The position numbers and the translations under genes were made by a program. This document shows positions 448-17,792 of a DNA stretch of 64,000 nt, piece after piece (position 1 is the stretch's first letter; each line of letters starts with the position of its first letter). Source of the stretch: Mesohalobacter halotolerans (GTDB lineage Bacteria; Bacteroidota; Bacteroidia; Flavobacteriales; Flavobacteriaceae); assembly GCF_006120725.1 (NCBI RefSeq), contig NZ_SWMU01000004.1, positions 62,001-126,000 on the forward strand, given 5' to 3'. The notes under the pieces are model-generated. The model saw only the letters and a list, made by a program, of their open reading frames with translations, made no database searches and was not told the DNA's origin.

Positions 448-3400
448 ATGGCCAATAACTTTATTTCAAATAAAAGCCCACAAAAAACCTTAAGCGGTCG
501 CTTAAACAACATCATAAAATTCAGTAAAGAATTACGATGGTTGGTAGGTTTCTTTTACTTCTCAGGTTGGAAAGAAGTCTATCAAAATCTTAAAAATAAT
601 CCAGATATTAAAATAAAACTTTTAGTAGGCTTACAGGTGGGCAATCACTTAGAGAAAATATTTGAACACGACGTGCAAGATTTAAATTTAAGTAGTGATG
701 AATATTTTAATGATTTTATGACCTCAATGGGTTTTGCTGTAAATAACGAGCAACAAGACACCAAAGCCTTTTATGAGCAAGTTCATTTTTTTCTGGATAT
801 GATTCGTCAAGAACGTTTAATCATCAAAAAAACCAGAGAACCCAATCATGCCAAATTGTATTTGTTTGAAATGAATGACGAAGAACGAGCCAAGCATAAT
901 TTTGAGGGCTATCTTATCACAGGCAGTAGCAATCTAACACGAAGCGGTTTGCAAGGCCAACAAGAATTTAATGTAGAGATTAAAGATTATGGCTACGAAG
1001 AAGCTGTAACCTATTTTGAAGAATCATGGGAATTGGCTATCCCTATTACAGAGTTAGACCAACGCAAACAGCATTTAATTGACTTTATCATTCACCGTTC
1101 TCAAGCCGCATTAGTCAAACCATTTGAAGCTTATGCCTTAGTCTTAAAAACCTATTTAGATCTTCAAAACCAGAAGAAACTAAAACCACAGGTAGAGCGC
1201 TTGCTTGAGGAAAACGGTTTTAAAAAATTTTCATACCAATTAGATGCAGTCAATCAAGCCATTGGTATAATAGAAGAAAATAATGGTGTTGTCATTGCAG
1301 ATGTGGTAGGCTTAGGCAAATCGGTTATCGCTTCGTTAATTGCTCGTCATTTAGATACTAAAGGTATTATTTTATCTCCTCCGGGTCTTATTGGTAATTG
1401 GGAAGACAAAACAGGCTGGGAAGGCTATGTTAGAAATTTTGAGTTGAATGGATGGCGTGTTTACAGTCGTGGTCAGGTTGAAAATCTCGCAGAAGATTTT
1501 GATGATACAGACATTGAAACCGTTATTATAGATGAAGCACATAACTTTAGAAATCAAGATACTGCTGCTTATGAAGCTTTAGTTCAAATATGTAGAGGTA
1601 AAAAAGTAATATTACTTACGGCAACACCGTTTAACAATTCGCCGGCAGATATATTTTCTTTATTAAAACTATTTATCATTCCAGGCTTGTCAACAATAAC
1701 ACTTGAAAACAATTTAGAAGGTTTATTTAGAAGTTATACTTATAGATTTAATAAACTATCTGATATATTAAAAAACTACAATTCTAATAATCCAGATAAA
1801 CGAGACAAAGCTGAAAAATTATACATTAAATTATTAGATAAAGAATTACCTGTTGACCCTAAAATTGTTCGCCAAGAATCGGCAAGATTGGCTAATAAAA
1901 TAAAAGAAGTTATTTCACCAGTAGTGATAAGAAGAAACCGTATAGACTTAGAAAACGATCATGAATACAGCCAAGAAATAGGCGACCTTCCTAAAGTCGC
2001 TCCACCTGAAGAATTATTTTATTACTTAACAAAATCTCAATCTGATTTTTACGACCGAATTGTTCGTGATTACTTTGCAGAAGGAGGTTTATTTAAAGGC
2101 GCAATATATCAACCTTCAAGTTAAGAGACCATTCAGGATGAAAGCGATTTAGACATGGAAGGCAACAGAACCTTTCAGCAACAACGTAACTTATTCGACT
2201 TCATGAGGCGTCTTCTAGTAAAACGCTTTGAAAGTTCGTTTGGAGCATTTCAAAAAACCATAGAGCGATTTATTCATGTTCATCAAATTGTCCTCGAATT
2301 TATAGAAAATACGGATGGTAAATATATAATGGATAGGGGTTTGATGGAAAAAATCTATGAGTATGATGCAGATGAAATATTAGATGTATTATACAGATTT
2401 GAAAATGATTTATTAAAAAGAAAAACCCCTAAAAATAATACAGTCTATAATGTCAAAAAGTTTCAAAAAGAAGAAGATTTTATAGCAGACATTAATAAAG
2501 ATTTAAATTTATTCAATAAAATACAACAGGAAATTGAAGAGGAGCAACTCGTTGTAAATGACCCAAAAAGAGAAAAAATATACCAAAAAGTAACCGAAAT
2601 TTTAAATAAAAATGACGACAGAAAAATCATTTTATTTACTGAATATGTGGATACGGTTTTACACTTAGAAAATTATTTCAGGTCTAAATTAGGTGATAAA
2701 GTTATTATTTGTGATGGCAAAGTCACCAAAGCTTTAGCTAAAGATTTAGAGCGTAATTTTAATGCGCAATATGAAGGCTCAAAACACAATGATTTTCAAG
2801 TGCTAATTACCAGTGATAAACTGTCTGAAGGTTTTAAATTAAACCGGGCAGGAATAATTATAAATTATGACATCCCATGGAATCCAACTCGTGTTATTCA
2901 AAGAGTAGGTCGTATCAATCGTATTGGCAAAAAAGTATTTGACGAATTGTTTATTTTCAACTTTTTCCCGTCTGAAACCGGAGCAGGTTTTGTGAAATCA
3001 AGAAAAATAGCAGAACAAAAAATGTTTATGATACATAATGCGCTTGGTGAAGATTCTCAAATTTTTCATCCAGACGAAGAACCACAAGCGTCAAATCTTT
3101 ATGAGAAGTTAAACGATAACCCGGAAGATGATGAAGAGTTAAATATAATAACCTACATTAGAAATGAGTATAATAATATTAAAGAAAAATATCCCGAAGT
3201 AATTGAAAAAATAGAAAAGTTACCCAATCGAGTGAAGACTTCTAAAGAGTTTGAAGAATCTAACGTCAATGTGTTACGCAAAAAAGGCTTGAGTTTATTT
3301 GCACAACAAGCTGAAACCAAAGAAAATGCAACTGTAGGAAGTTTAACATTTGAAAAGTTCTTGCAATTTGTAGAATGTGAACACGGAACAAAACGAGTGC

Positions 3401-3801
3401 CAATGTCAAAGGCTTTTTGGCGTGTTTATGAAGCCATCAAAACACATAAAGAAAAAATACGTTCAAACAATTCAGATTTAGCCATAGAAAAGAAAGCACA
3501 CGATAATTTAAAAGTGGCCTTAAAAGTAATTGATGCTTCAGAAGAAGAAAATATAAATTTTATCAAAACTATAATTAAAGACATAAAGCATTATTATACA
3601 ATGCCTAAATATACCCTGAGAAGATTAGCATTTGAAGTGCTTTCCCCAAATTCTACAAAAGCCAAATGGAAGCAGTTCTTTAAAGAATTAAACTATATTA
3701 AAAATAGATATGGCATTGATTATCTTGATAGGATATTAGAAAAAGTAAAAAACAAAAAAGATGAAGTTATTATAGCTATTGAAAACAGGGAAACAGCATA
3801 A
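448..3801 (+). pseudogene. PLD-domain SNF2/DEAH helicase split by an in-frame TAA
   Basis: Two open stretches in the same frame (448-2124 and 2155-3801) are separated only by a TAA at 2122-2124; the codons between them are open and fit the family. Read through, the protein would have about 1117 residues. The N-terminal half shows a phospholipase D-like HxK motif (H134, K136) with a GSSNLT stretch, then a SNF2 helicase domain with Walker A lysine near 291, DEAH at 362-365 and a TATPFNN motif. After the stop come helicase C motifs (LITSDKLSEGFK and the QRVGRINRIGKK arginine finger). Tyrosine (TAT/TAC) is the simplest ancestral codon. The two halves could still be made separately, the second from ATG 2155, but loss of function is more likely. 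The role is probably phage defence, given the AbiEii neighbour. Confidence 0.85.
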
Positions 3802-6153: not shown

Positions 6154-9100
6154 TTAAATACTTTCAAATTCTTTATCGTAATAGGTTGTCGCGTCTTGCA
6201 TTAACATGTCTAAATATTGATTTTCGCGATCGCAATGAGCTTCATCCCATTTTAAATATTTTATTAAATCTTCCTCTACGACATGTCTAAACTGACGTAC
6301 ACTTTCTATATCAAAATATAATCTACCTGTTCGACGAACAAAAAAATCGGATAATCCATTGACCATTTCATGATGCACTGTATACCACAACTCAGCTCTT
6401 ACTAATCTTTCAATCGGTGTGGGGTTGATAAAGAAATTCATTTTTTTCAAAATAATATCAGCTTGTCTACCATAATTAGAGGTCAAATACCAGGCTTGAT
6501 AATCGTCGTCTATGCCTTCATTTTCAAGTTTGTGCGTTAATATTTTTTGGTATTTTTTGACATCATCTAGATTTTTAAGAGGCGCTGAGGTTAATTGAAT
6601 TTGCTTAGTTGTTGATGGCTTTAGCCGTTTGAGTCTTTTCTTTTTAAATTGTTTTAAAGCTTCATCAATCGTACGTTGTGCCATTTTGCGATAACCAGTG
6701 AGTTTCCCACCGGCAATAGATACCAAACCAGAGTCAGACACAAAAATCTCATCTTTTCTAGACAAATCTGAAGGATCTTTACCATCTTCATGGATAAGTG
6801 GACGCAAGCCAGCCCAATTGGATTCGATATCATCAATTTTTAAATTCAATTTAGGAAACATATTATTGACGGCATCTATCAAATAATTAGCATCATCTTT
6901 GGTCGCCACTACCCTATTCAAATCGCCTTTATATGTGGTATCTGTAGTCCCAACATAAGTGGCTCTACCCCGTGGAATAGCAAAAATCATTCGGCCATCA
7001 GGCACGTCAAAATAAATGGATTGGGACAGTGGAAAACGCTCGCGTGAAAACACCAAATGTACGCCTTTAGTTAAATGCAAACGCTTATTATTTAAGGATG
7101 TATCTTTTGTCCTGACTTTATCTACCCATGGTCCTGCTGCGGAAATGTAAGCTTTGGATTTAATGATAAATTTTTCATTAGAATTATGATCTTTAACATA
7201 GATATGCTTGATTTTACCATTGTCTTTATACACAAATTCTGTCATTTCACAATAATTCAAAATATCTGCACCATAAGCAGATGCTTTTTTGAGCAACTCA
7301 ATGGTCAAGCGTGCATCATCTGTGCGGTATTCTGCATAAAATCCACCACCTTTTAGGTTATCTTTGTTTAATAAAGGTTCTTTTTCAAGCGTTTCTTTTG
7401 CAGATAGCATTTTCCGCTTGTCATCACCTTCCACATCAGCGAGAAAATCGTAAACTTTTAAACCAATTGAAGTCATTGTTTTGCCATAAGTTCCACCTTC
7501 TATTAATGGCAAAAGCATTTTTTCAGGGACGACCAGATGTGGCACAAGATTGTGAACAATAGCGCGTTCACTACCAGATTCTTTGACTAAACCAATTTCC
7601 ATCTGCTTGAGATATCGTAGCCCACCGTGAATCAATTTTGTGGATTTATTACTGGTACCGGAAGCAAAATCATTTTTTTCTATTAAGCAAGTTTTAAGAC
7701 CACGAGACGCAGCATCAAGCGCAATGCCAGCTCCAGTCACACCACCGCCGATGATGAGAATATCGTATTTGGTATGTTTGATTTGATGAATTAAGGGTTT
7801 TCTATCTAAAACTGAAAAGCGAATCGGCGTATCTTCTCTTACAGCCAACTGGTTAGCATGAGCGGTTTTGGTCCTCTCCACAGCATGTTTCCAACCATCG
7901 TAAAGTTTGGTTCGCTCAAATTGAGATATTTTGGGTTTAAAAATTTGGTCTATATCTCTAATTTCTGTAATATCTTCTTTGGTCCATATCCCAGCTTGAA
8001 TACCAGCGAGAAATGCCGCTCCCATGGCGGTCACCTCTAACATTTCTGGTCGTTCTACTTCAGCGTTTAAAATGTCGGCTTGAAATTGCATCAAGTAATT
8101 ATTAGCAGAAGCGCCACCATCGACGCGCAAAGCTTTCATTTGTTGACCACTATCTTCAACCATAGCTTCTAACACATCGCGTATTTGGTAAGCAATAGCT
8201 TGAACAGTCGCTTTAGTCAATGCATTTTTATCGGTATCTAAAGTCAACCCAAAAATAGAGCCTTTGGCTTTCATGTCCCAATGAGGTGCACCCAGACCAG
8301 CAAAGGCAGGAACGACATACAAACCAGAATTAATTTTAGTCTCGTTACATATTGTCTCTGTATCGGCAGATTGTTCAATAAAATCCATCTTATCCCTAAG
8401 CCATTGCACAGAAGCGCCGGCAACAAAAACACTGCCCTCTAAAGCATATTTAATTTTCTCATCAGGTAATGTGCAAGCTAAAGTTGTCAATAAACCATTT
8501 GTGGAGATATTGGCTTTTTTACCCGTATTCAGCAACATAAAACAGCCTGTGCCGTAAGTATTTTTAGCAATACCGGATTTAAAGCCACCTTGACCAAACA
8601 ACGAAGCTTGTTGATCGCCGGCAACACCGAGAATGGGTATTTTAATATCTTTATATTCTGCATATCCAAAATCTGAAGATGAATATTGTACTTTGGGTAA
8701 ACTAGATTTTGGAACATCAAGGGCTTTTATTAATGTATCGTCCCATTCTAAATTATGAATATTAAATAACAGAGTCCTAGACGCATTGGTATGGTCTGTC
8801 AAGTGTTTTTCGCCCTTGGTGAATTTCCAAATCAACCAAGAATCAATGGTGCCAAATTTTAGCCTATTTTGTTTAGCCAATTCTCGAGCTTCCGGTACGT
8901 GGTCTAAAATCCATTTGAATTTTGTGCCCGAAAAATAAGCATCTACTTTAAGGCCTGTTGTTTTTATAATGTTGTCCTCGTGACCGTCTTCTATAAGTAT
9001 ATCGCAAATATCGCTACTGCGTTTGTCGAGCCAAACAATAGCGTTGTAAACAGGCTTACCTGTTTTGGCATCCCAAACGACGGTAGTTTCTCGTTGATTG

Positions 9101-9339
9101 GTTATACCAATACCTGCGATGTCTTTTACAGGTATCTTATTTTGATTAATGACCTCATAAAAAACCTGTTTTTGATCTTCAAATATTTCAATAGGGTCTT
9201 GCTCTACCCAACCTGATTGAGGGTGATGTTGTTTTAACTCCTTTTGGGCGATGCCATGAATTTGTCCTGATTTATCAAATATGATAGCTCTGGTACTTGT
9301 TGTCCCTTGATCGAAAGCAATAATGTATTTTGAAGCCAT
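6154..9339 (-). CDS. glpK-glpD: Glycerol kinase-glycerol-3-phosphate dehydrogenase fusion protein
   Basis: One uninterrupted 1061-residue frame holds two complete enzymes. Residues 1 to about 495 are glycerol kinase: DQGTTSTR at 10-17, NQRETT at 81-86, catalytic Asp242 in GVAGDQQ, and VDGGASAN near 407. Residues from about 507 are FAD-dependent glycerol-3-phosphate dehydrogenase: FAD motif GGGVTGAG at 531-538, then FASGTSNKSTK and the C-terminal DAO domain. The first enzyme makes glycerol 3-phosphate and the second oxidises it to dihydroxyacetone phosphate at the membrane, feeding quinones. The linker is only about 12 residues. The fructose-bisphosphate loop of E. coli GlpK (GxR) is not conserved (KDIKIP). 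In other bacteria these are separate, often adjacent genes. No glpF is present nearby. An assembly or indel artefact cannot be excluded. Confidence 0.93.
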   Translation of the reverse strand: MASKYIIAFDQGTTSTRAIIFDKSGQIHGIAQKELKQHHPQSGWVEQDPIEIFEDQKQVFYEVINQNKIPVKDIAGIGITNQRETTVVWDAKTGKPVYNAIVWLDKRSSDICDILIEDGHEDNIIKTTGLKVDAYFSGTKFKWILDHVPEARELAKQNRLKFGTIDSWLIWKFTKGEKHLTDHTNASRTLLFNIHNLEWDDTLIKALDVPKSSLPKVQYSSSDFGYAEYKDIKIPILGVAGDQQASLFGQGGFKSGIAKNTYGTGCFMLLNTGKKANISTNGLLTTLACTLPDEKIKYALEGSVFVAGASVQWLRDKMDFIEQSADTETICNETKINSGLYVVPAFAGLGAPHWDMKAKGSIFGLTLDTDKNALTKATVQAIAYQIRDVLEAMVEDSGQQMKALRVDGGASANNYLMQFQADILNAEVERPEMLEVTAMGAAFLAGIQAGIWTKEDITEIRDIDQIFKPKISQFERTKLYDGWKHAVERTKTAHANQLAVREDTPIRFSVLDRKPLIHQIKHTKYDILIIGGGVTGAGIALDAASRGLKTCLIEKNDFASGTSNKSTKLIHGGLRYLKQMEIGLVKESGSERAIVHNLVPHLVVPEKMLLPLIEGGTYGKTMTSIGLKVYDFLADVEGDDKRKMLSAKETLEKEPLLNKDNLKGGGFYAEYRTDDARLTIELLKKASAYGADILNYCEMTEFVYKDNGKIKHIYVKDHNSNEKFIIKSKAYISAAGPWVDKVRTKDTSLNNKRLHLTKGVHLVFSRERFPLSQSIYFDVPDGRMIFAIPRGRATYVGTTDTTYKGDLNRVVATKDDANYLIDAVNNMFPKLNLKIDDIESNWAGLRPLIHEDGKDPSDLSRKDEIFVSDSGLVSIAGGKLTGYRKMAQRTIDEALKQFKKKRLKRLKPSTTKQIQLTSAPLKNLDDVKKYQKILTHKLENEGIDDDYQAWYLTSNYGRQADIILKKMNFFINPTPIERLVRAELWYTVHHEMVNGLSDFFVRRTGRLYFDIESVRQFRHVVEEDLIKYLKWDEAHCDRENQYLDMLMQDATTYYDKEFESI

Positions 9340-9370
9340 ATTTTAAACATTAAATCCTAACAAATATGCT

Positions 9371-9402
9371 AAAAATTAATAGGTATATCTAAGAAAAACA
9401 AA
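9371..9402 (-). promoter_or_regulatory. Probable promoter of the glpK-glpD gene
   Basis: On the minus strand TTTG (9402-9399) and TAATTTTT (9378-9371, 7 of 8 to TAnnTTTG) are separated by 20 bases, the usual flavobacterial spacing. The start codon lies about 30 bases further on. Confidence 0.55.
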
Positions 9403-9413
9403 GCTTAAAATCA

Positions 9414-9428
9414 TGTAAGCGTTTGTAT
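9414..9428. promoter_or_regulatory. LacI-type operator between glpK-glpD and the sugar porter gene
   Basis: TGTAAGCGTTTGTAT is a near palindrome centred on CG, the form bound by LacI-family repressors. It matches the site at 17778-17792 in 14 of 15 positions on the opposite strand. The 257-base divergent gap 9340-9596 also holds the glpK-glpD promoter and a TAAATTTG box (9515-9522) that may serve the porter gene; nothing else was recognised there. Confidence 0.6.
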
Positions 9429-9596
9429 TTTAAACTATTTAATAAAAAGACTAATTCACTACTATTTTCTAAATCGTTATCGTAAATCTCTAAACTCCAT
9501 CTTTAATTTCGAATTAAATTTGTAATATTGGGCAATTTAGATGAAATTTTATGGGATAAAAATCCACTAAAACCAACATCAATAAACCTTTAAGCC

Positions 9597-10985
9597 ATGA
9601 ACAAAAAAGCCTTTTTAATTTTAATTACCAGTGTCTCTGCGCTTGGCGGATTACTTTTTGGATATGATACCGGTGTGATTAACGGCGCACAATTTTTTCT
9701 CAGCAAGTATTTTGAATTAGATCCCGGTATGAAAGGTTGGGTAGTGGCTAGTGCACTTTTAGGATGTCTGGTGGGTGCAATTTCTTCTGGGTTTTTTAAT
9801 ACTTTATTTGGTAGAAAATATACATTAATCCTTTCAGCCATACTGTTTACACTATCAGCTTGGGGCTCAGGAATGCCTTCATTTTTACCTGAAAGTGTAA
9901 GTTTACTTGTCGTTTTTAGAATTATTGGCGGTATTGGTATTGGCTTAGCCTCAATGTCTGCACCCGTTTATATTGCAGAAATCGCGCCTTCGAAACAACG
10001 TGGGATTTTGGTGAGTTTTTATCAATTGGCTATTGTGGTTGGGTTTTTTGTGGTGTTTCTCGTCACTTACTTTATTGGAAAAGATCTCACTGAAGCACAA
10101 AATATTCAATTTGGCTGGCGACAAATGTTTTGGTCTGAATTGATTCCGTGCGCCTTATTTTTATTTGCATTGTTTTTTGTCCCTAAAAGTCCGAGATGGT
10201 TGTATTTACAAGGTCGAGATATAGAAGCCTTAAAAACTTTGACCAAAATTCATGGCGAAATGGTCGCCATTGACGAACAGCGAGAAATCAAAAAATCTAT
10301 CGAAAAAAACCAAAATCAAACTAAAAAGGTCAATTACTTCTCTAAAACCATCCTTGGCATTATTGTGATTGGAACCGTTTTCTCGATGCTGCAGCAGTTT
10401 ACAGGCATCAATGCCGTATTGTATTACGGTGCCGATATTTTTGAAAAAGCACTTGGCTTTGGTAAGGATGATGTATTGGCTCAGCAAATCTTATTAGCCG
10501 GTGTAAATTTGATATTTACGTTTGTCGCTATGTTCTCCGTAGATAGATTTGGACGTAAACCTTTGGTAATCATCGGTAGTATTGGGATGATTATTGGATT
10601 TTTATTACTGGGCTTTAGTTTAAAAAACGACGCTGTTGGATTAGTCTCTTTAATTGGCGTATTGTTGTTTATCGCTTCGTTTGCCATGTCTATGGGACCT
10701 GTGGTTTGGGTCGTGTTATCCGAAATGTTTCCTAACCGCATAAGAAGTGTGGCCATGTCTGTTGCGGTTGCAGCACAATGGGGTTCCAATTATATTGTCT
10801 CCCAAAGTTTTCCAGTGGTAATGGAAAGCGAACTTAACGATAGCCCGTTTTGGAATGGCTCTCTGCCCTACTTTATCTTTATAGGTTTTATGATAATTCT
10901 GATTGTATTTATTATAAAATTTATTCCAGAAACCAAAGGGAAATCGCTTGAAGAATTGGAAGAAATTTGGGAGAAAAAATTATAG
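9597..10985 (+). CDS. Sugar porter, major facilitator superfamily
   Basis: The 462-residue inner-membrane protein has the signature of proton-coupled sugar porters (XylE/GLUT type): GYDTGVINGAQ in the first helix, GRKYT in loop 2-3, RIIGGIGIGLAS, IAPSKQRG, PKSPRWL after helix 6, QQFTGINAVLYY in helix 7 and PETKGKSLEELE at the end. Twelve hydrophobic segments are evident. Its probable job is uptake of a monosaccharide or disaccharide such as the products of the GH13 enzyme at 17887. A LacI-type operator upstream supports this link. The stop codon lies inside the end of the convergent hydratase gene (6-base overlap). Confidence 0.92.
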   Translation: MNKKAFLILITSVSALGGLLFGYDTGVINGAQFFLSKYFELDPGMKGWVVASALLGCLVGAISSGFFNTLFGRKYTLILSAILFTLSAWGSGMPSFLPESVSLLVVFRIIGGIGIGLASMSAPVYIAEIAPSKQRGILVSFYQLAIVVGFFVVFLVTYFIGKDLTEAQNIQFGWRQMFWSELIPCALFLFALFFVPKSPRWLYLQGRDIEALKTLTKIHGEMVAIDEQREIKKSIEKNQNQTKKVNYFSKTILGIIVIGTVFSMLQQFTGINAVLYYGADIFEKALGFGKDDVLAQQILLAGVNLIFTFVAMFSVDRFGRKPLVIIGSIGMIIGFLLLGFSLKNDAVGLVSLIGVLLFIASFAMSMGPVVWVVLSEMFPNRIRSVAMSVAVAAQWGSNYIVSQSFPVVMESELNDSPFWNGSLPYFIFIGFMIILIVFIIKFIPETKGKSLEELEEIWEKKL

Positions 10986-11744
10986 TGTATTAAACCTAAC
11001 CTCACCAAAGCCTTTTAATTCAGCAGAAACCTTAGTTTTAGGCTTCAACCATTCTGCAGCCGTAGCAGCACCAGCGAGAATGATTTGTCCTTTTTTTAAT
11101 ACTAAATTTTTTTCAGCAGCCAAACGAGACAATTCAACGATAGATTGATAAGGATTATCCAGAATAGCTTGGGTAAATCCACTTTGCACCGTTTTATCGT
11201 TAAATGTTAATTGAATGGGTAAATTGGTAATGTCTTCTTTTAAATCTTGCCACTGACCTATACAATAGCCTATTGACGAACAATTATCAGCAATGACATC
11301 TTCCAATGAAAATTTGAAATCCTTGTAGCGCGAATCAATAACTTCAATAGCAACCGCCATCTTATCAATATATTGTGGAATATCATTTAATGTGATTTCC
11401 TGTGCAATGTCATTAGAAATTCTAAACGCCACTTCAGGTTCTGCTCTAGGATGGATGTATTGGTTTAAATCGATATTTTCATCAGGTTTAATTTCCATGT
11501 TATCTGTCAAGACGCCCCAAATTAAGTCATCAACACCCATTTGTTGCATTTTGGCTTTACTGGTAAACCCGAGTTTGTAACCTGTGATGGTTTCTCCCCT
11601 ATCCAAACGAAGTTGTATAAGTTTGTGTTGAATATTGTAGGCTTCTTCTAATGAAAACTTGACGGCTTCAGAAGGTTGAGCGATTGGTGTTGCTGTTGTG
11701 GCAGCTTTGTCAAGTTGTTGGGATATTGTGGTTTTATTATTCAT
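10980..11744 (-). CDS. 2-keto-4-pentenoate hydratase / 4-oxalocrotonate decarboxylase family enzyme
   Basis: This 254-residue protein belongs to the fumarylacetoacetate hydrolase-like superfamily, with GYKLGFTSKAKMQQMGV near 55 and the metal-binding HPRAEPEVAF motif near 98 (ExE). Members hydrate 2-oxopent-4-enoate or decarboxylate 4-oxalocrotonate in meta-cleavage pathways. It lies 62 bases after the kynurenine monooxygenase gene on the same strand, so a role in the lower branch of kynurenine (2-aminomuconate) degradation is likely; which of the two reactions it performs cannot be told from the sequence. The intervening gap has a short CTGAC/GTCAG hairpin (11771-11784). Confidence 0.82.
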   Translation of the reverse strand: MNNKTTISQQLDKAATTATPIAQPSEAVKFSLEEAYNIQHKLIQLRLDRGETITGYKLGFTSKAKMQQMGVDDLIWGVLTDNMEIKPDENIDLNQYIHPRAEPEVAFRISNDIAQEITLNDIPQYIDKMAVAIEVIDSRYKDFKFSLEDVIADNCSSIGYCIGQWQDLKEDITNLPIQLTFNDKTVQSGFTQAILDNPYQSIVELSRLAAEKNLVLKKGQIILAGAATAAEWLKPKTKVSAELKGFGEVRFNTL

Positions 11745-11806
11745 TCTGTTTGGTTTTCTCGATAACCTAACTGACAGCAGTCAGGGACGCAAAGTATCTA
11801 AGGTTT

Positions 11807-13189
11807 TTAAACGTTTATCACTTCATCCTCTAAATAGCGGTTCGTGTGTGTTTTGACAATCTCAAGTTTTTCTTTTAAACTTAAATGTTCTGGTAGGTGG
11901 CCTTCTTTTAATAAATACAAAATCACTTTATCCTGAGCACGACCACGAACTTTGGCATCGTGATAACCGATGTCTTCATTAAAGGTGACTAAAGAATATT
12001 TAGACGCATAATCATCAGGGAATTCCTTTTCAAAAGCCAATTCTAATTGGCGTTTTTGTAAAAACAACTCTTGCGCCGTATGGGCTTTCATTTCATGAAA
12101 ATTATCTAGTGCCAAATCGGCAATGCCATCGGCGTCTTGTTTTCGGGTTTGACTAAATTCAGAAAACGCTTTGTCTAAATCAAAATCGACTTCGTTTAAA
12201 ATATCATCAAACACGGCTACATCTTCAAAAGAAGCATTCATCCCTTGTCCGTAAAACGGCACAATAGCGTGAGCGGCATCACCCATAATCAATGTTTTTT
12301 TATACGTCCAAGGCGAACATCTTACCGTGCCAAGTGCTGCTGTTGGATTGTCAAAAAACTCTTCTTTTAAATGTGGCATCAAAGCGTGGGCATCGGGATA
12401 GTCTTTTTTGAAATATTCTTCAACTATTTTAGGGTTTGTTAAATTATTAAAATTATAATCGCCTCCTTCATATGCTAAAAATAAAGTCACCGTAAAACTT
12501 CCATCTAAATTAGGCAAAGCAATCAGCATATTTTCGCCTCTTGGCCAAATGTGTAGCGCATTTTTATAGATTTGATGTTCTCCATTTTTAGGTAAAATAC
12601 TCAGTTCTTTGTAACCGTGGGTTAAAAAGTTCTGAGAAAAGCTAAAACGCAATTCTCTATTTTTCATTAAAGCTTGCCTCACCACAGAACCTGCGCCATC
12701 GGTGCCAATGATATAGTCAGCTTGAACGTGAAAATTTACGTCAGTTTTTTCATTTATGAATTCAGCTTTAGCACTTTCAACATCAACATTTTGACATGCG
12801 GCCTGAAATATCAAATGGACATTGTCGTGTTTCTCGACTTCATCCAAGAGTAAAGCGTTAAGACCAGATCTGGAAATAGAATTAATATAATTACCATCTT
12901 GTCCGCTGTAAGGCGATAATTTTGTATTGGAATTTTTATCGTGAAGCATCCGGCCATTCATCGGAATGCAAAGCACTTTGACTTTGTCTTCGAGACCAAC
13001 GCGTTTTATGCCTTTAAGACCTCGATCAGAAAAAGCGAGGTTAATAGATCGCCCTGCAGAAATATCGGCATTTCTCAAATCTGGACGTTTTTCAACTAGT
13101 GTGATTTTATAGCCGTGTTGGGCGAGTTTTAAGGCTAGTAATGAGCCGCACAATCCTGCGCCAACGATGAGCAAATGCTTATCCTGCAT
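11807..13189 (-). CDS. kmo: Kynurenine 3-monooxygenase
   Basis: The 460-residue flavoprotein hydroxylates L-kynurenine to 3-hydroxykynurenine with NADPH and oxygen. It shows the FAD-binding GAGLCG at 10-15, GRSINLAFSDRG near 46-57 typical of KMO, a GTDGAGSVVR motif in the middle and GDAAHAIVPFYGQGMN for the flavin pyrophosphate near 310. The start overlaps the end of the kynureninase gene by 11 bases, so translation is probably coupled. With kynureninase it converts kynurenine to 3-hydroxyanthranilate. Genes for 3-hydroxyanthranilate dioxygenase and tryptophan dioxygenase are not in the window. Confidence 0.95.
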   Translation of the reverse strand: MQDKHLLIVGAGLCGSLLALKLAQHGYKITLVEKRPDLRNADISAGRSINLAFSDRGLKGIKRVGLEDKVKVLCIPMNGRMLHDKNSNTKLSPYSGQDGNYINSISRSGLNALLLDEVEKHDNVHLIFQAACQNVDVESAKAEFINEKTDVNFHVQADYIIGTDGAGSVVRQALMKNRELRFSFSQNFLTHGYKELSILPKNGEHQIYKNALHIWPRGENMLIALPNLDGSFTVTLFLAYEGGDYNFNNLTNPKIVEEYFKKDYPDAHALMPHLKEEFFDNPTAALGTVRCSPWTYKKTLIMGDAAHAIVPFYGQGMNASFEDVAVFDDILNEVDFDLDKAFSEFSQTRKQDADGIADLALDNFHEMKAHTAQELFLQKRQLELAFEKEFPDDYASKYSLVTFNEDIGYHDAKVRGRAQDKVILYLLKEGHLPEHLSLKEKLEIVKTHTNRYLEDEVINV

Positions 13190-14444
13190 ATCTAATATGT
13201 TTTAAAATTTGAACAAATTGGTAAACGTCTTCAAAACTGTTATAAAGCGGTGCCGGCGCAACGCGTATCACTTGCGGCTCACGCCAATCGGCTACAACTC
13301 CGGCTTGAGTTAATTTATCAAACAAGCTTTTATCAGCATCGAGAAATTGTATGGATAACTGGCAGCCTCTTTCGTTTGGTTTTTTTGGTGTAATGAGTTT
13401 TAGATTATCATCATTTAATTCTAATAATAAATATTCCAAAAAACCAGTCAAATCTTTTGATTTTTTAACCACATTGTCAAATCCAGCTTGTTGAAAAATA
13501 TCTAGGGAAGCTCTAATGGCTGCCATAGATAATATTGGCGGATTGCTTAACTGCCAGGCTTCTGCGGTTGGGATGGGTTTAAAATCCTGACGCATGTTAA
13601 AACGTGTGGATTTGTCATGTCCCCACCAACCCGTAAAGCGATGTAAGTCTTTGGTATGATGCTTTTCATGCACAAAACAACCCCCGAGACTTCCGGGTCC
13701 TGAATTGAGATATTTATAAGTGCACCACACCGCAAAGTCAACACCTAAATCGTGCAAATGGGGTTGAATATTACCAACACCATGTGCTAAGTCAAAGCCA
13801 ATTTTAATATCATTTTGATGACATGAATCAGTGATATATTTCATGTCAAAATGTTGTCCGGTGTAATAGTTCGTATTGCCAATTAAAACCAAAGCAATTT
13901 CATCGCCATGATTTTGAATAATTTGATTAAAATCTTCTATATCATAATATTGGTCTTCTCGAGGTTTCCAAAGAATTAAAGCATCTTTGGGGTCGTAATC
14001 ATGATATTTTAATTGAGACTCCACAGCGTATAAATCGGACGGAAATGCATCGGCTTCTATAAGGATTTTATGGCGTTTTGATGTAGGTTGATAAAACGAA
14101 ACCATCATCAAATGTAGATTGACCGATAATGTATTCATGATAATGACTTCGCTTTCTTTTGCTCCAACAATATTTGCCATAGGTTTTGACAGAAACTCGT
14201 GATAAGGCATCCAAGGATTTTTAGCGTCGGTGTGACCATCAACTCCATAATCAGACCAATCATTTAATTCCTGTTGGATATAATCAGAGGTTGATTTAGG
14301 TTGAAGTCCGAGTGAATTGCCGCACAAATAAATTTTATTATCCCCTAGATTAGTTTTTGGGAAATAAAATTGATTTCTAAATTTTTTTAAACGGTCATTT
14401 GTATCGCAATTTTGCGCAAATTCTAAGCTATTTTCAAATTTCAT
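13179..14444 (-). CDS. kynU: Kynureninase
   Basis: This PLP enzyme of about 421 residues cleaves kynurenine or 3-hydroxykynurenine to alanine and (3-hydroxy)anthranilate. Diagnostic stretches are LCGNSLGLQPK near the N-terminus, FDLAHGVGN, and CTYKYLNSGPG, which carries the PLP lysine. A longer frame starts at 14462, but the seventh codon (ATG 14444) gives MKFENSLEFA, matches where homologues begin, and leaves 1 base after the upstream stop. It forms an operon with kmo, which follows with an 11-base overlap. Confidence 0.94.
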   Translation of the reverse strand: MKFENSLEFAQNCDTNDRLKKFRNQFYFPKTNLGDNKIYLCGNSLGLQPKSTSDYIQQELNDWSDYGVDGHTDAKNPWMPYHEFLSKPMANIVGAKESEVIIMNTLSVNLHLMMVSFYQPTSKRHKILIEADAFPSDLYAVESQLKYHDYDPKDALILWKPREDQYYDIEDFNQIIQNHGDEIALVLIGNTNYYTGQHFDMKYITDSCHQNDIKIGFDLAHGVGNIQPHLHDLGVDFAVWCTYKYLNSGPGSLGGCFVHEKHHTKDLHRFTGWWGHDKSTRFNMRQDFKPIPTAEAWQLSNPPILSMAAIRASLDIFQQAGFDNVVKKSKDLTGFLEYLLLELNDDNLKLITPKKPNERGCQLSIQFLDADKSLFDKLTQAGVVADWREPQVIRVAPAPLYNSFEDVYQFVQILKHIRYAG

Positions 14445-14445
14445 A

Positions 14446-15144
14446 TTAATTGATGCTGACATTTCTAAAATTGAGCTGAAAACCAGTATCAGGATTGCGA
14501 TGAATCATATTAATCTTGATGCCATCAAAGTTTGATAAATCTTCAAATGTATTGAGCAATGCAGGTTCTTTTTTTCCGCTTGGGTAATATGCCCATTCTA
14601 TAATGTGTTGATTTTGGTCAAGATAGACATCGTAACGGTCACCTGGTGTGTAGCCACCTTCATTTGGATATTTCACGATGAGTTTTGTGCTTTCTTTTTG
14701 TTGAATTGGAGATTTTACCCCTTCAATAGTCTCATAATTAAAAACTCCCCATTCCAAATGAAATGGAAACAATAACCAAAAGCTATCATTGACAAAGGCC
14801 TTATCAGTATCAACGAATTCTTGCATAATATTATCTCTCTTGTAAGTTATTCTTTCGTTTTCTTTAACCAATGTGACCTTATCATTTTTAGGATACCAAA
14901 TCCAATGCCTTATCATTTCTTGTTCGCCAGGATTAACGACAAAACTAAATTCAATTTTTTCTACTGACGGCCAGTGTTCATAACCATGAGCATAAGCGAT
15001 TTTTTCTAAGATAGTTTTGGTTTCTTCTTTCTTTTCCTCAGTTTGCTCTGAAATGGTGTTGGTCTTTTCTTTATTTTGCTTTTTATTGTTTTGACAAGAC
15101 GTCAACGTCAAAAATGTGATAAGGGCTAAAAATAGTGTTTTCAT
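14446..15144 (-). CDS. Putative lipoprotein of unknown function
   Basis: The 232-residue protein begins with a short signal peptide ending in a lipobox (LTLTSC), so it should be a lipid-anchored envelope protein. A charged, low-complexity linker (about 20-45) is followed by a globular part with many aromatic residues, including HWIWYPKNDKV and WAYYPSGKKEP. The fold recalls the family of outer-membrane lipoprotein carriers or DUF-type envelope proteins, but I do not recognise a named domain. It sits between the BLUF gene (9-base gap) and kynU (1-base gap), so it is the second gene of the kynurenine operon; a link to the pathway is only positional. Confidence 0.75.
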   Translation of the reverse strand: MKTLFLALITFLTLTSCQNNKKQNKEKTNTISEQTEEKKEETKTILEKIAYAHGYEHWPSVEKIEFSFVVNPGEQEMIRHWIWYPKNDKVTLVKENERITYKRDNIMQEFVDTDKAFVNDSFWLLFPFHLEWGVFNYETIEGVKSPIQQKESTKLIVKYPNEGGYTPGDRYDVYLDQNQHIIEWAYYPSGKKEPALLNTFEDLSNFDGIKINMIHRNPDTGFQLNFRNVSIN

Positions 15145-15637: not shown

Positions 15638-15681
15638 TGATCTAATTTTTTTTGTTAATTTTACCTTATCATAAGGAAGTC

Positions 15682-16683
15682 ATGAAGCAAAAAACTACAC
15701 TTAAGCAGTTATCTAAAGAACTTAACGTTTCTGTTTCTACAGTATCTAAAGCTTTAAATAATAGCTCTGAAATCAGCACAAAGACAATAAAACGCGTTAA
15801 GGAATTAGCAAAGCTTTATGGCTATAAGCCTAACCCGGTTGCTGTTAGCCTTAAACGCAACAAGACCTTTACCATCGGTATTTTAATTCCTGATATCCTC
15901 AATCATTTTTTTGCTAAAGTTTTACATGGGATTGAAGAACAAGCAAGTCTTAAGGGATATAAAATCATAACTTGTTTAACCAATGAATCTCTCGATAAAG
16001 AAAAGGAATATCTTGAAATGCTAGAATATAATAAAGTTGATGGTATTATTGCAGCGCTTAGCAAGGAAACGCAGGTTAAGGAGGACTTTTCACATTTTAA
16101 AAACTTTAAAAGTTTAGACAAACCTTTAGTACTATTTGACAGGATAACTGATGAAATAGATTGCGACAAAGTGCTAGTCGATGATCAGAAAGCCGCTCAA
16201 GATGTTTTTGAGTATTTGAAAGAACAAAATCGTAAAAACATTGCGGTAGTTTCTACTTTGCCTCATCTTAGTGTGATTGTCGCGAGACTTCAAGGTGTCA
16301 TGACATCTGCCAATCAAACTTCTACAAACGTCAAAACCCTCATGATCAGTGAAACTAAAGACGCAGAATCTAAAATCAATGATTTTTTTAAAAACGAATC
16401 CTTTGATGCTTTGATTGGTTTAGATGAAACTGCAGCGTCTATTGCTATTAATGCCGCAAAGCATTATCAAGTAAAAATACCAAAAGATTTAGCTATAGTT
16501 GGATTTACAGATGGGTTATTAGCCAAAAATGCTTATCCCAAAATGAGTGTTGTGTCTCAGCATGCTATAGAACTAGGCAAAAATACCGTAAAAATATTAT
16601 TAGAAAGAATTGAGAATAAAACTTTGAAACCAAAGCGATTTATTCAACCTACAACACTTATTAAAAGAGCCTCTTCAGAGTAA
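15682..16683 (+). CDS. LacI-family transcriptional regulator
   Basis: The 333-residue protein has an N-terminal LacI helix-turn-helix (TLKQLSKELNVSVSTVSKAL, followed by RVKELAKLYGYKPN) and a C-terminal periplasmic-binding-protein-like sensor domain, seen at TFTIGILIPDILNHFFAKVL and GFTDGLLAKNAYP. It should bind a near-palindromic operator and respond to a sugar or phosphorylated sugar. The frame is open from 15652, but ATG 15682 gives MKQKTTLKQL, is preceded by AAGGAAG, and fits the family. The gene converges on a second LacI gene with one base between the stops. Either regulator could read the operators at 9414 and 17778. Confidence 0.92.
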   Translation: MKQKTTLKQLSKELNVSVSTVSKALNNSSEISTKTIKRVKELAKLYGYKPNPVAVSLKRNKTFTIGILIPDILNHFFAKVLHGIEEQASLKGYKIITCLTNESLDKEKEYLEMLEYNKVDGIIAALSKETQVKEDFSHFKNFKSLDKPLVLFDRITDEIDCDKVLVDDQKAAQDVFEYLKEQNRKNIAVVSTLPHLSVIVARLQGVMTSANQTSTNVKTLMISETKDAESKINDFFKNESFDALIGLDETAASIAINAAKHYQVKIPKDLAIVGFTDGLLAKNAYPKMSVVSQHAIELGKNTVKILLERIENKTLKPKRFIQPTTLIKRASSE

Positions 16684-16684
16684 A

Positions 16685-17728
16685 TCATCGCGTAGTATCG
16701 CGATAGACCAATTTAGTTGGCAATACAATTTCGCTATTTTGGTCGGTATTTGAGATAAAAAAACCTTTATCAATTTTATTTAGTAGCATCTCAGCCACTT
16801 TTTCCCCCATTTTAAAACTGGGTTGAGAGACACATGTTAACTCTGGTGTAAACATATTACTGTAATGTAAATTCCCAAACCCTATGACTTCAATGTCTTG
16901 AGGAACTTTATAACCTAGTTTAGTCAAAGCTTTAATACACAAAATAGCATAATTATCGGTTGAGCAAAAAAAAGCATTTGGCACATCTTGAAGCTTAGAG
17001 AGAAAATTGAAAACTTCATAAAACTCGTGCTCTTGATGATATGACTTGCAATTTAATACATGCCGGGTTTTAAAAGATTGGTGATGTTTTTTATGGGCTT
17101 CAACAAAGCCATCAAAACGTTGATTAAACACACTTTTTTTTGAAGTGCCACCTATATAACCGATGCTGTTATTCTTATGTTTTATAAGTATTTCAACAGC
17201 CTTAACAGCAGAGCTGAAGTCATCAATTTTAACATGACCGGCGCCATCGATTTTATGACTAATATTATCAAATAAAACTAGTGGCATTTTTCTGTCAATA
17301 AGTTCTTCAACATGCTCATATGAATTTGTTTCATGAGTAAAACACATCGCAACACCGTCTACTGTGCCTCTTTCAAAAGCTAAGACATTTTCTTTTTCGT
17401 ATTTAAAAGAGTTTCTGGAAGAATTAATTAGAATTCTGTAATCATGTTTTCTGACATAATAGTCGATCCCTCTACAAACCTCTATAAAAAAAGGTTCATC
17501 ATATCTTGGAATAATAACCCCTAAGACATTTGTTTTACCAGAGCTCAAACTTTTAGCAATTTGATTAGACCTATATCCCATTTGTTTAGCCTTAGACAAG
17601 ACCCTTTGTTTTGTTTCAGGCTTTACTCTGGAACTGTCAGACATAGCTCTTGAGACAGTAGCAATGGAGAGTTTTAAAGCTCTTGCCAAATCTTCAAGTC
17701 TTACTCTACTGTTAATCTTTGAATTCAA
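16685..17728 (-). CDS. LacI-family transcriptional regulator of the GH13-SusCD operon
   Basis: The 347-residue protein has a LacI helix-turn-helix (LEDLARALKLSIATVSRAMS) with the hinge AKSLSSGKT, then the sugar-sensing domain (LGVIIPRYDEPFFIEVCRGI, IGYIGGTSKKSV, CVSQPSFKMGEKVAEMLL). It is transcribed away from the GH13 gene, and the 158-base gap between them holds a LacI-type operator. It is therefore the most likely local repressor of GH13-susC-susD and of itself. It is only distantly similar to the neighbouring LacI protein by eye, so the two are not a recent duplication. Confidence 0.93.
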   Translation of the reverse strand: MNSKINSRVRLEDLARALKLSIATVSRAMSDSSRVKPETKQRVLSKAKQMGYRSNQIAKSLSSGKTNVLGVIIPRYDEPFFIEVCRGIDYYVRKHDYRILINSSRNSFKYEKENVLAFERGTVDGVAMCFTHETNSYEHVEELIDRKMPLVLFDNISHKIDGAGHVKIDDFSSAVKAVEILIKHKNNSIGYIGGTSKKSVFNQRFDGFVEAHKKHHQSFKTRHVLNCKSYHQEHEFYEVFNFLSKLQDVPNAFFCSTDNYAILCIKALTKLGYKVPQDIEVIGFGNLHYSNMFTPELTCVSQPSFKMGEKVAEMLLNKIDKGFFISNTDQNSEIVLPTKLVYRDTTR

Positions 17729-17777
17729 ATTTTTAAATAATTAACAACAAAAATCCTTTTTTAATGAAAAATTGATA

Positions 17778-17792
17778 ATACAAACGTTTACA
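17778..17792. promoter_or_regulatory. LacI-type operator before the GH13-susCD operon
   Basis: ATACAAACGTTTACA, read on the other strand as TGTAAACGTTTGTAT, is a near palindrome centred on CG. It is the same site, with one difference, as 9414-9428. It lies about 95 bases before the GH13 start and 50 bases before the divergent lacI start, where it could control both. Confidence 0.65.

Follow-up and report, generated by a model that had tools for sequence, protein, structure and literature searches.

Can two consecutive enzymes of glycerol metabolism be made as one protein, and if so, how did the join arise and what might it bring? Glycerol kinase (GlpK) and FAD-dependent glycerol-3-phosphate dehydrogenase (GlpD) are textbook enzymes acting in sequence, so their union in one chain is a natural test of a benefit from gene fusion. 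The question is raised by a single open reading frame in a 64,000-nucleotide stretch of the Mesohalobacter halotolerans genome (the window; all coordinates refer to it). The locus has the following layout:

6154–9339, minus strand: fused glpK-glpD gene, 1061 amino acids, ATG at 9339 and stop codon at 6154–6156
7861–9339, minus strand: GlpK (glycerol kinase) domain, residues 1 to about 493
7819–7860, minus strand: linker, residues about 494–507, predicted to be disordered
6157–7818, minus strand: FAD-dependent glycerol-3-phosphate dehydrogenase domain, residues 508–1061

An initial annotation of this DNA had described a frame of 1061 codons with entire GlpK and GlpD domains, which our analysis confirmed; the strand, left unstated there, is the minus strand, and the plus strand across 6154–9339 is full of stop codons. 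The two remaining frames are closed by stops at 7841 and 7855, as had been stated. The linker, put at about 12 residues, measures about 12–15 in our analysis, and the mass, given as about 118 kDa, comes to 119.9 kDa when calculated from the fused sequence. Pfam models matched in the order FGGY_N (residues 5–249), FGGY_C (259–448), DAO (526–856) and DAO_C (944–1035), and the two DAO models scored above their cut-offs in all 17 fused members scanned. The fused protein was the sole match in the source genome, which is rated 99.99% complete.

The kinase half can be aligned to E. coli GlpK over residues 3–505, and the fused protein scored 674.3 bits against the TIGR01311 glycerol kinase profile, above the curated cut-off of 590.35. 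R83, E84, Y135 and D242 are invariant in all 68 alignment rows having a letter at these positions; in E. coli GlpK, we take R83, E84, Y135 and D245 to be glycerol-binding and catalytic residues. We therefore predict that this half is a glycerol kinase with ATP-dependent phosphorylation activity.

The dehydrogenase half carries a GGG FAD motif at residues 531–533 and can be aligned to Bacillus halodurans GlpD (3da1) over residues 508–1043. Its predicted model matched solved GlpD structures over the whole domain. Since it scored below the cut-offs for both the E. coli-type GlpD (NF008899, 315.3 bits against 360) and the type 1 glycerol-3-phosphate oxidase (NF033461, 477.4 bits against 840), Bacillus-type FAD-dependent glycerol-3-phosphate dehydrogenase is the fitting name. 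R575, Y576 and H761, whose roles are presumably those known from the E. coli enzyme, are invariant in 77 of 77 rows, as are R846 and K879, which we assume to be substrate contacts, across the 17 fused rows of alignment A1. Membrane association and reduction of quinone would be expected of this half as a member of the GlpD family.

A frame of this kind could be mimicked by an assembly or sequencing error that deleted a stop codon at the junction, as the initial annotation had cautioned, and the closure of both remaining frames at that point would agree with such an error. We regard this as practically discounted, and reject it for the join, which relatives share: at least 22 further distinct sequences lack a stop between the halves. 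In all, the same join occurs in at least 23 distinct sequences, from at least 19 sampled Flavobacteriaceae genomes and four Dokdonia loci, D. pacifica among them. Checking relatives for the two-domain architecture, as had been suggested, thus revealed a fusion common to a scatter of related genera. In the sample of the source genus, four of 27 genomes carry the fused gene, namely the source, G016 (91%; copy L057), G024 (85%; copy L058) and G019 (88–90%). Among the matches listed for the family sample, which includes the source genome as the genus sample does, a one-frame fusion was found in at least 15 of 397 genomes and at least 12 of 237 genera; the frames were checked, and one is cut at a contig end. 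One further fused sequence came from G610. In the G019 copy (L110, 4762–7942) the frame is broken near residue 730, within the GlpD half and away from the junction, through either real decay or a sequencing error.

Within the source genus, seven genomes (G004, G006, G007, G009, G021, G025 and G026) have separate glpD and glpK genes of a distant form, and no glpD/glpK pair was matched in the remaining 16 of 27. Among other genomes, G125 has glpD and glpK separately on different contigs (L076, L077), and in four more (L053–L055, L083) the 1.5 kb fetched next to glpD contained no glpK. Beyond the Flavobacteriaceae, no fusion turned up among matches at E values of 1e-190 or better in order and phylum samples of 395 genomes each; these samples overlap the earlier ones, the output does not give the share of genomes outside the family, and phyla beyond that of the source were reached through the plasmid collection only. 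Several candidates were set aside. Six matches outside the family with apparent read-through frames proved to be separate genes upon frame analysis. Of 108 plasmid records with one place covering 80% of the query, the two inspected both held separate genes, as did those fetched among the open frames of 990–1120 residues (43–46% and 56–60% identity), with a stop in between.

How did the join arise? The kinase tree (55 rows, careful method) gathers all 23 fused rows into a single 32-row clade (support 100/100), which also contains nine nested separate rows from eight genomes; four changes of state are needed, three of them forced by starred branches. In the dehydrogenase tree (61 rows), a clade of 34 rows (95/86) takes in all 22 fused rows along with 12 separate ones; three changes are required, all three forced by starred branches. 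As separate genes lie outside the clade, one old fusion followed by two or three splits appears to be the simplest history that the trees allow. Several independent fusions instead of one fusion with later splits would also explain the interleaving of fused and separate states, with its four changes in one tree and three in the other, as well as the position of G102, whose separate genes lie inside the fused clade in the kinase tree and just outside in the dehydrogenase tree. We consider this history unlikely: only three changes are forced in each tree, the fused rows sit on deep branches of the clade, and a history free of splits would call for many more fusions.

A pair of genomes also speaks against repeated fusion. 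G304, with the fused gene, and G194, with separate genes, have flanking genes in common and hence one locus. In G194, 188 bases separate the kinase stop from the first glpD ATG (L127, gap at about 6500–6693), and this gap holds a palindromic repeat found at 11 places in the G194 genome and absent from G304 with up to three mismatches (reversed control, zero). G194 looks like a case of splitting by insertion, the direction being our reading of the comparison. Fusion of a neighbouring pair can be pictured from one separate sister clade: in five of its loci (L046, L047, L049, L050, L052) the junction reads TAAGATG, glpD occupies the +1 frame, and one base separates the genes when the first glpD ATG is taken; in the sixth member, L048, the genes overlap, and in L082, from another lineage, they stand slightly farther apart. 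Such a pair could have become fused long ago through a small frameshift. The initial annotation had proposed that a small indel made the frame, which remains a fair guess for an ancient event. As a recent local event it does not hold, since the fused state is common to at least 12 genera of the family.

The dN/dS ratios between the source gene and L057, 0.045 for the kinase half and 0.054 for the dehydrogenase half, indicate that both halves are under purifying selection. Over codons 491–507 (17 codons), the same pair differs by ten synonymous and two nonsynonymous changes. Against two Dokdonia sequences, the halves gave ratios of 0.056–0.097 and the linker 0.17–0.33, so the linker evolves faster at that distance; against L058, synonymous sites were saturated in all three parts and gave no ratio.

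We modeled the fused protein using an alignment of 123 of 144 rows, which omitted four plasmid-record rows and 17 near-duplicates or fragments; a model from a 17-row alignment was poor (pLDDT 55). In the larger alignment, the tails of some kinase-only rows strayed into dehydrogenase columns 536, 846 and 878–883, and these columns were not counted. The model reached a mean pLDDT of 88.1, and both predicted domains match solved enzymes; the pTM of 0.63 leaves their relative placement unfixed. The final helix predicted for the kinase ends at residue 488, pLDDT falls below 50 over residues 493–505, and GlpD starts near F508. Each enzyme is thus predicted to be well folded, with a disordered tether between the two, a picture that speaks against a rigid tunnel. 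The initial annotation had proposed that the fusion may channel glycerol 3-phosphate to the membrane; the disorder, together with the pTM, would fit a tether better than a tunnel.

A disordered linker might also allow one frame to yield two working proteins, through an internal start or cleavage in the linker, and GTG at residue 487 and TTG at residue 498 stand in frame as alternative start codons just before GlpD. We hold this to be quite improbable, as the source gene has no in-frame ATG from codon 470 to residue 580, a point past the FAD motif.

What, then, does the fused protein do? We conclude that it is very probably a genuine bifunctional enzyme, which arose when neighbouring glpK and glpD genes fused long ago; the kept catalytic residues, the purifying selection, the shared frame and the placing of every fused row in one clade all count in its favour, and the broken G019 copy counts against it. 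The kinase domain would convert glycerol and ATP to glycerol 3-phosphate, which the FAD domain would oxidize to dihydroxyacetone phosphate, passing electrons to the membrane quinone pool. The flexible linker of about 14 residues would keep the two enzymes at a 1:1 ratio, and GlpD would bring the kinase, which is normally soluble, to the membrane. Both activities, the membrane location and any kinetic gain are our deductions; if a kinetic gain exists, it would more likely come from proximity at the membrane than from a closed channel.

The fusion could instead be neutral, a harmless by-product of a tight gene pair that secures equal expression with no benefit from channelling or targeting, and we give this reading a chance only a little short of even. 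The one-base spacing of TAAGATG pairs, the seemingly recurrent splits (in one case with a palindromic repeat in the gap) and the predicted disorder of the linker are what neutrality would lead one to expect. Fusion has apparently been undone on two or more occasions and is therefore not indispensable. Against neutrality, the fused state has persisted, with linkers of similar length, in at least 12 of the sampled genera, and one clade of the source genus has no glycerol kinase match other than the fused gene.

That clade invites a closer look at glycerol entry. In a quick RpoB tree (30 rows, 26 of them from the 27 genus genomes), the four fused genomes group in a clade of five rows, the fifth being G021 with the separate glpD-glpK type. 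The ancestor of the clade likely acquired the fusion, which would then have descended vertically. Gene surroundings in the genus are unlike those in the other fused genera seen, save that G362 also has, near its fusion, a sugar porter belonging to the same cluster. A gene for a MIP channel (GlpF/aquaporin) was present in 32 of 36 chosen genomes tested, among them the four fused genus genomes and six of the seven with separate genes, and the four exceptions are the fused genus genomes. In the six tested of the seven genus genomes with separate genes, the channel gene adjoins glpK. All 15 fused genomes of other genera that were tested have a MIP gene (GlpF or AqpZ), although never within 200 kb of the fusion on the same contig, as far as contig ends allow. 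Hence the fusion by itself does not accompany channel loss, and the missing channel gives the four genus genomes a physiological angle of their own.

One could picture the fused enzyme of the genus clade as a membrane-held glycerol trap that replaced the aquaglyceroporin and is adapted to glycerol-rich saline waters: a single protein on the inner side of the membrane would phosphorylate and oxidize glycerol that had diffused in, making GlpF unneeded. In salterns, glycerol counts as a main source of carbon, according to the accessible part of one report (PMC4021199). We consider a trap of this kind unlikely. The available text on Candidatus Berkiella, which has glpK and glpD and no glpF, proposes passive diffusion as one glycerol source (PMC9803151), and as far as that text goes, the example weighs against tying the fusion to a missing channel.

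Upstream of the fused gene, the window shows three further features:

9340–9596, no strand assigned: upstream intergenic region between the fused gene and the divergent transporter gene
9414–9425, plus strand: candidate LacI/CcpA-type operator-like site, 11-base core identical in four of four fused genus genomes
9597–10985, plus strand: sugar-porter gene (MFS, XylE-like), divergent from the fused gene

The operator-like site was missing, with up to one mismatch, from 22 other upstream stretches (18 of fused genes in other genera, four of separate glpK genes) searched over 400 bases, or 252 in one of them; the site is therefore linked to the genus and not to the fusion. A second exact site lies at 17781–17792, beside two regulator-like genes (about 15646–17740), the first of LacI type and the second clustering with the first. 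The sugar porter is divergent beside the fused gene in three of the four fused genus loci and scored under the cut-off of its XylE-like model. It is a possible uptake partner, and one may speculate that it carries glycerol. Beyond it, a three-gene run on the minus strand (10980–14462) appears to us to resemble a hydratase-type enzyme, kynurenine 3-monooxygenase and kynureninase. On the other side, adjacent plus-strand frames of 558 and 548 residues (448–3801) match successive parts of anti-phage SNF2-type helicases (DrmD, HKD/PLD helicase) and look like a single defence gene broken near 2124–2155.

The locus holds a true, shared fusion of two consecutive enzymes, each already of a known kind, and the fusion may already be known to database annotators. 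In searches of the open-access literature on glycerol kinase, its fusion or channelling, judged mostly from listed records, we found no description of a GlpK-GlpD fusion, nor was one described in the accessible portions of PMC4450592, PMC6737245, PMC3245297, PMC4021199, PMC13400652, PMC9803151, PMC6888959, PMC10480196 and PMC3788122. The Flavobacteriaceae supply fused, separate and apparently re-split forms, and at least in G304 and G194 two of these forms occupy one common locus, so that proximity and channelling could be told apart with matched natural proteins from a single family.

Among known systems, GlpK of the FGGY family (TIGR01311) resembles the N-terminal half, which lies above the cut-off with its catalytic residues intact. 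The solved GlpK chains matched are free-standing and about 485–526 residues long, whereas the fused chain runs on into GlpD. Bacillus-type GlpD (3da1, 9a53) is likewise covered almost entirely by residues 508–1043, C-terminal DAO_C included, and is present in the source organism as the C-terminal half of the kinase fusion. The type 1 oxidase GlpO (NF033461; 2rgh, 2rgo) has the fold in common at 35–36% identity, but the match to 2rgo is split in two (chain residues 2–374 and 351–597), as expected if the fused protein lacks an insert, which we take to be the oxidase insert. The genus glpD-glpK-glpF cluster encodes the same two enzymes in adjacent genes but as two chains of a distant form (50–54% identical for the kinase, 30–34% for the dehydrogenase), and the glpK-glpD clusters of relatives likewise pair the enzymes in adjacent genes and two chains. 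The name "glpKD", in the available part of PMC6888959, denotes two genes, each with its own ribosome-binding site. According to the accessible text of PMC4450592 and PMC10480196, the multidomain glycerol-3-phosphate dehydrogenase of Giardia, Entamoeba and Eggerthella is GlpA-like and also fused to another enzyme, but the partner there is a pyridine nucleotide-disulphide oxidoreductase, and the glycerol kinase of Entamoeba is a separate, simple protein.
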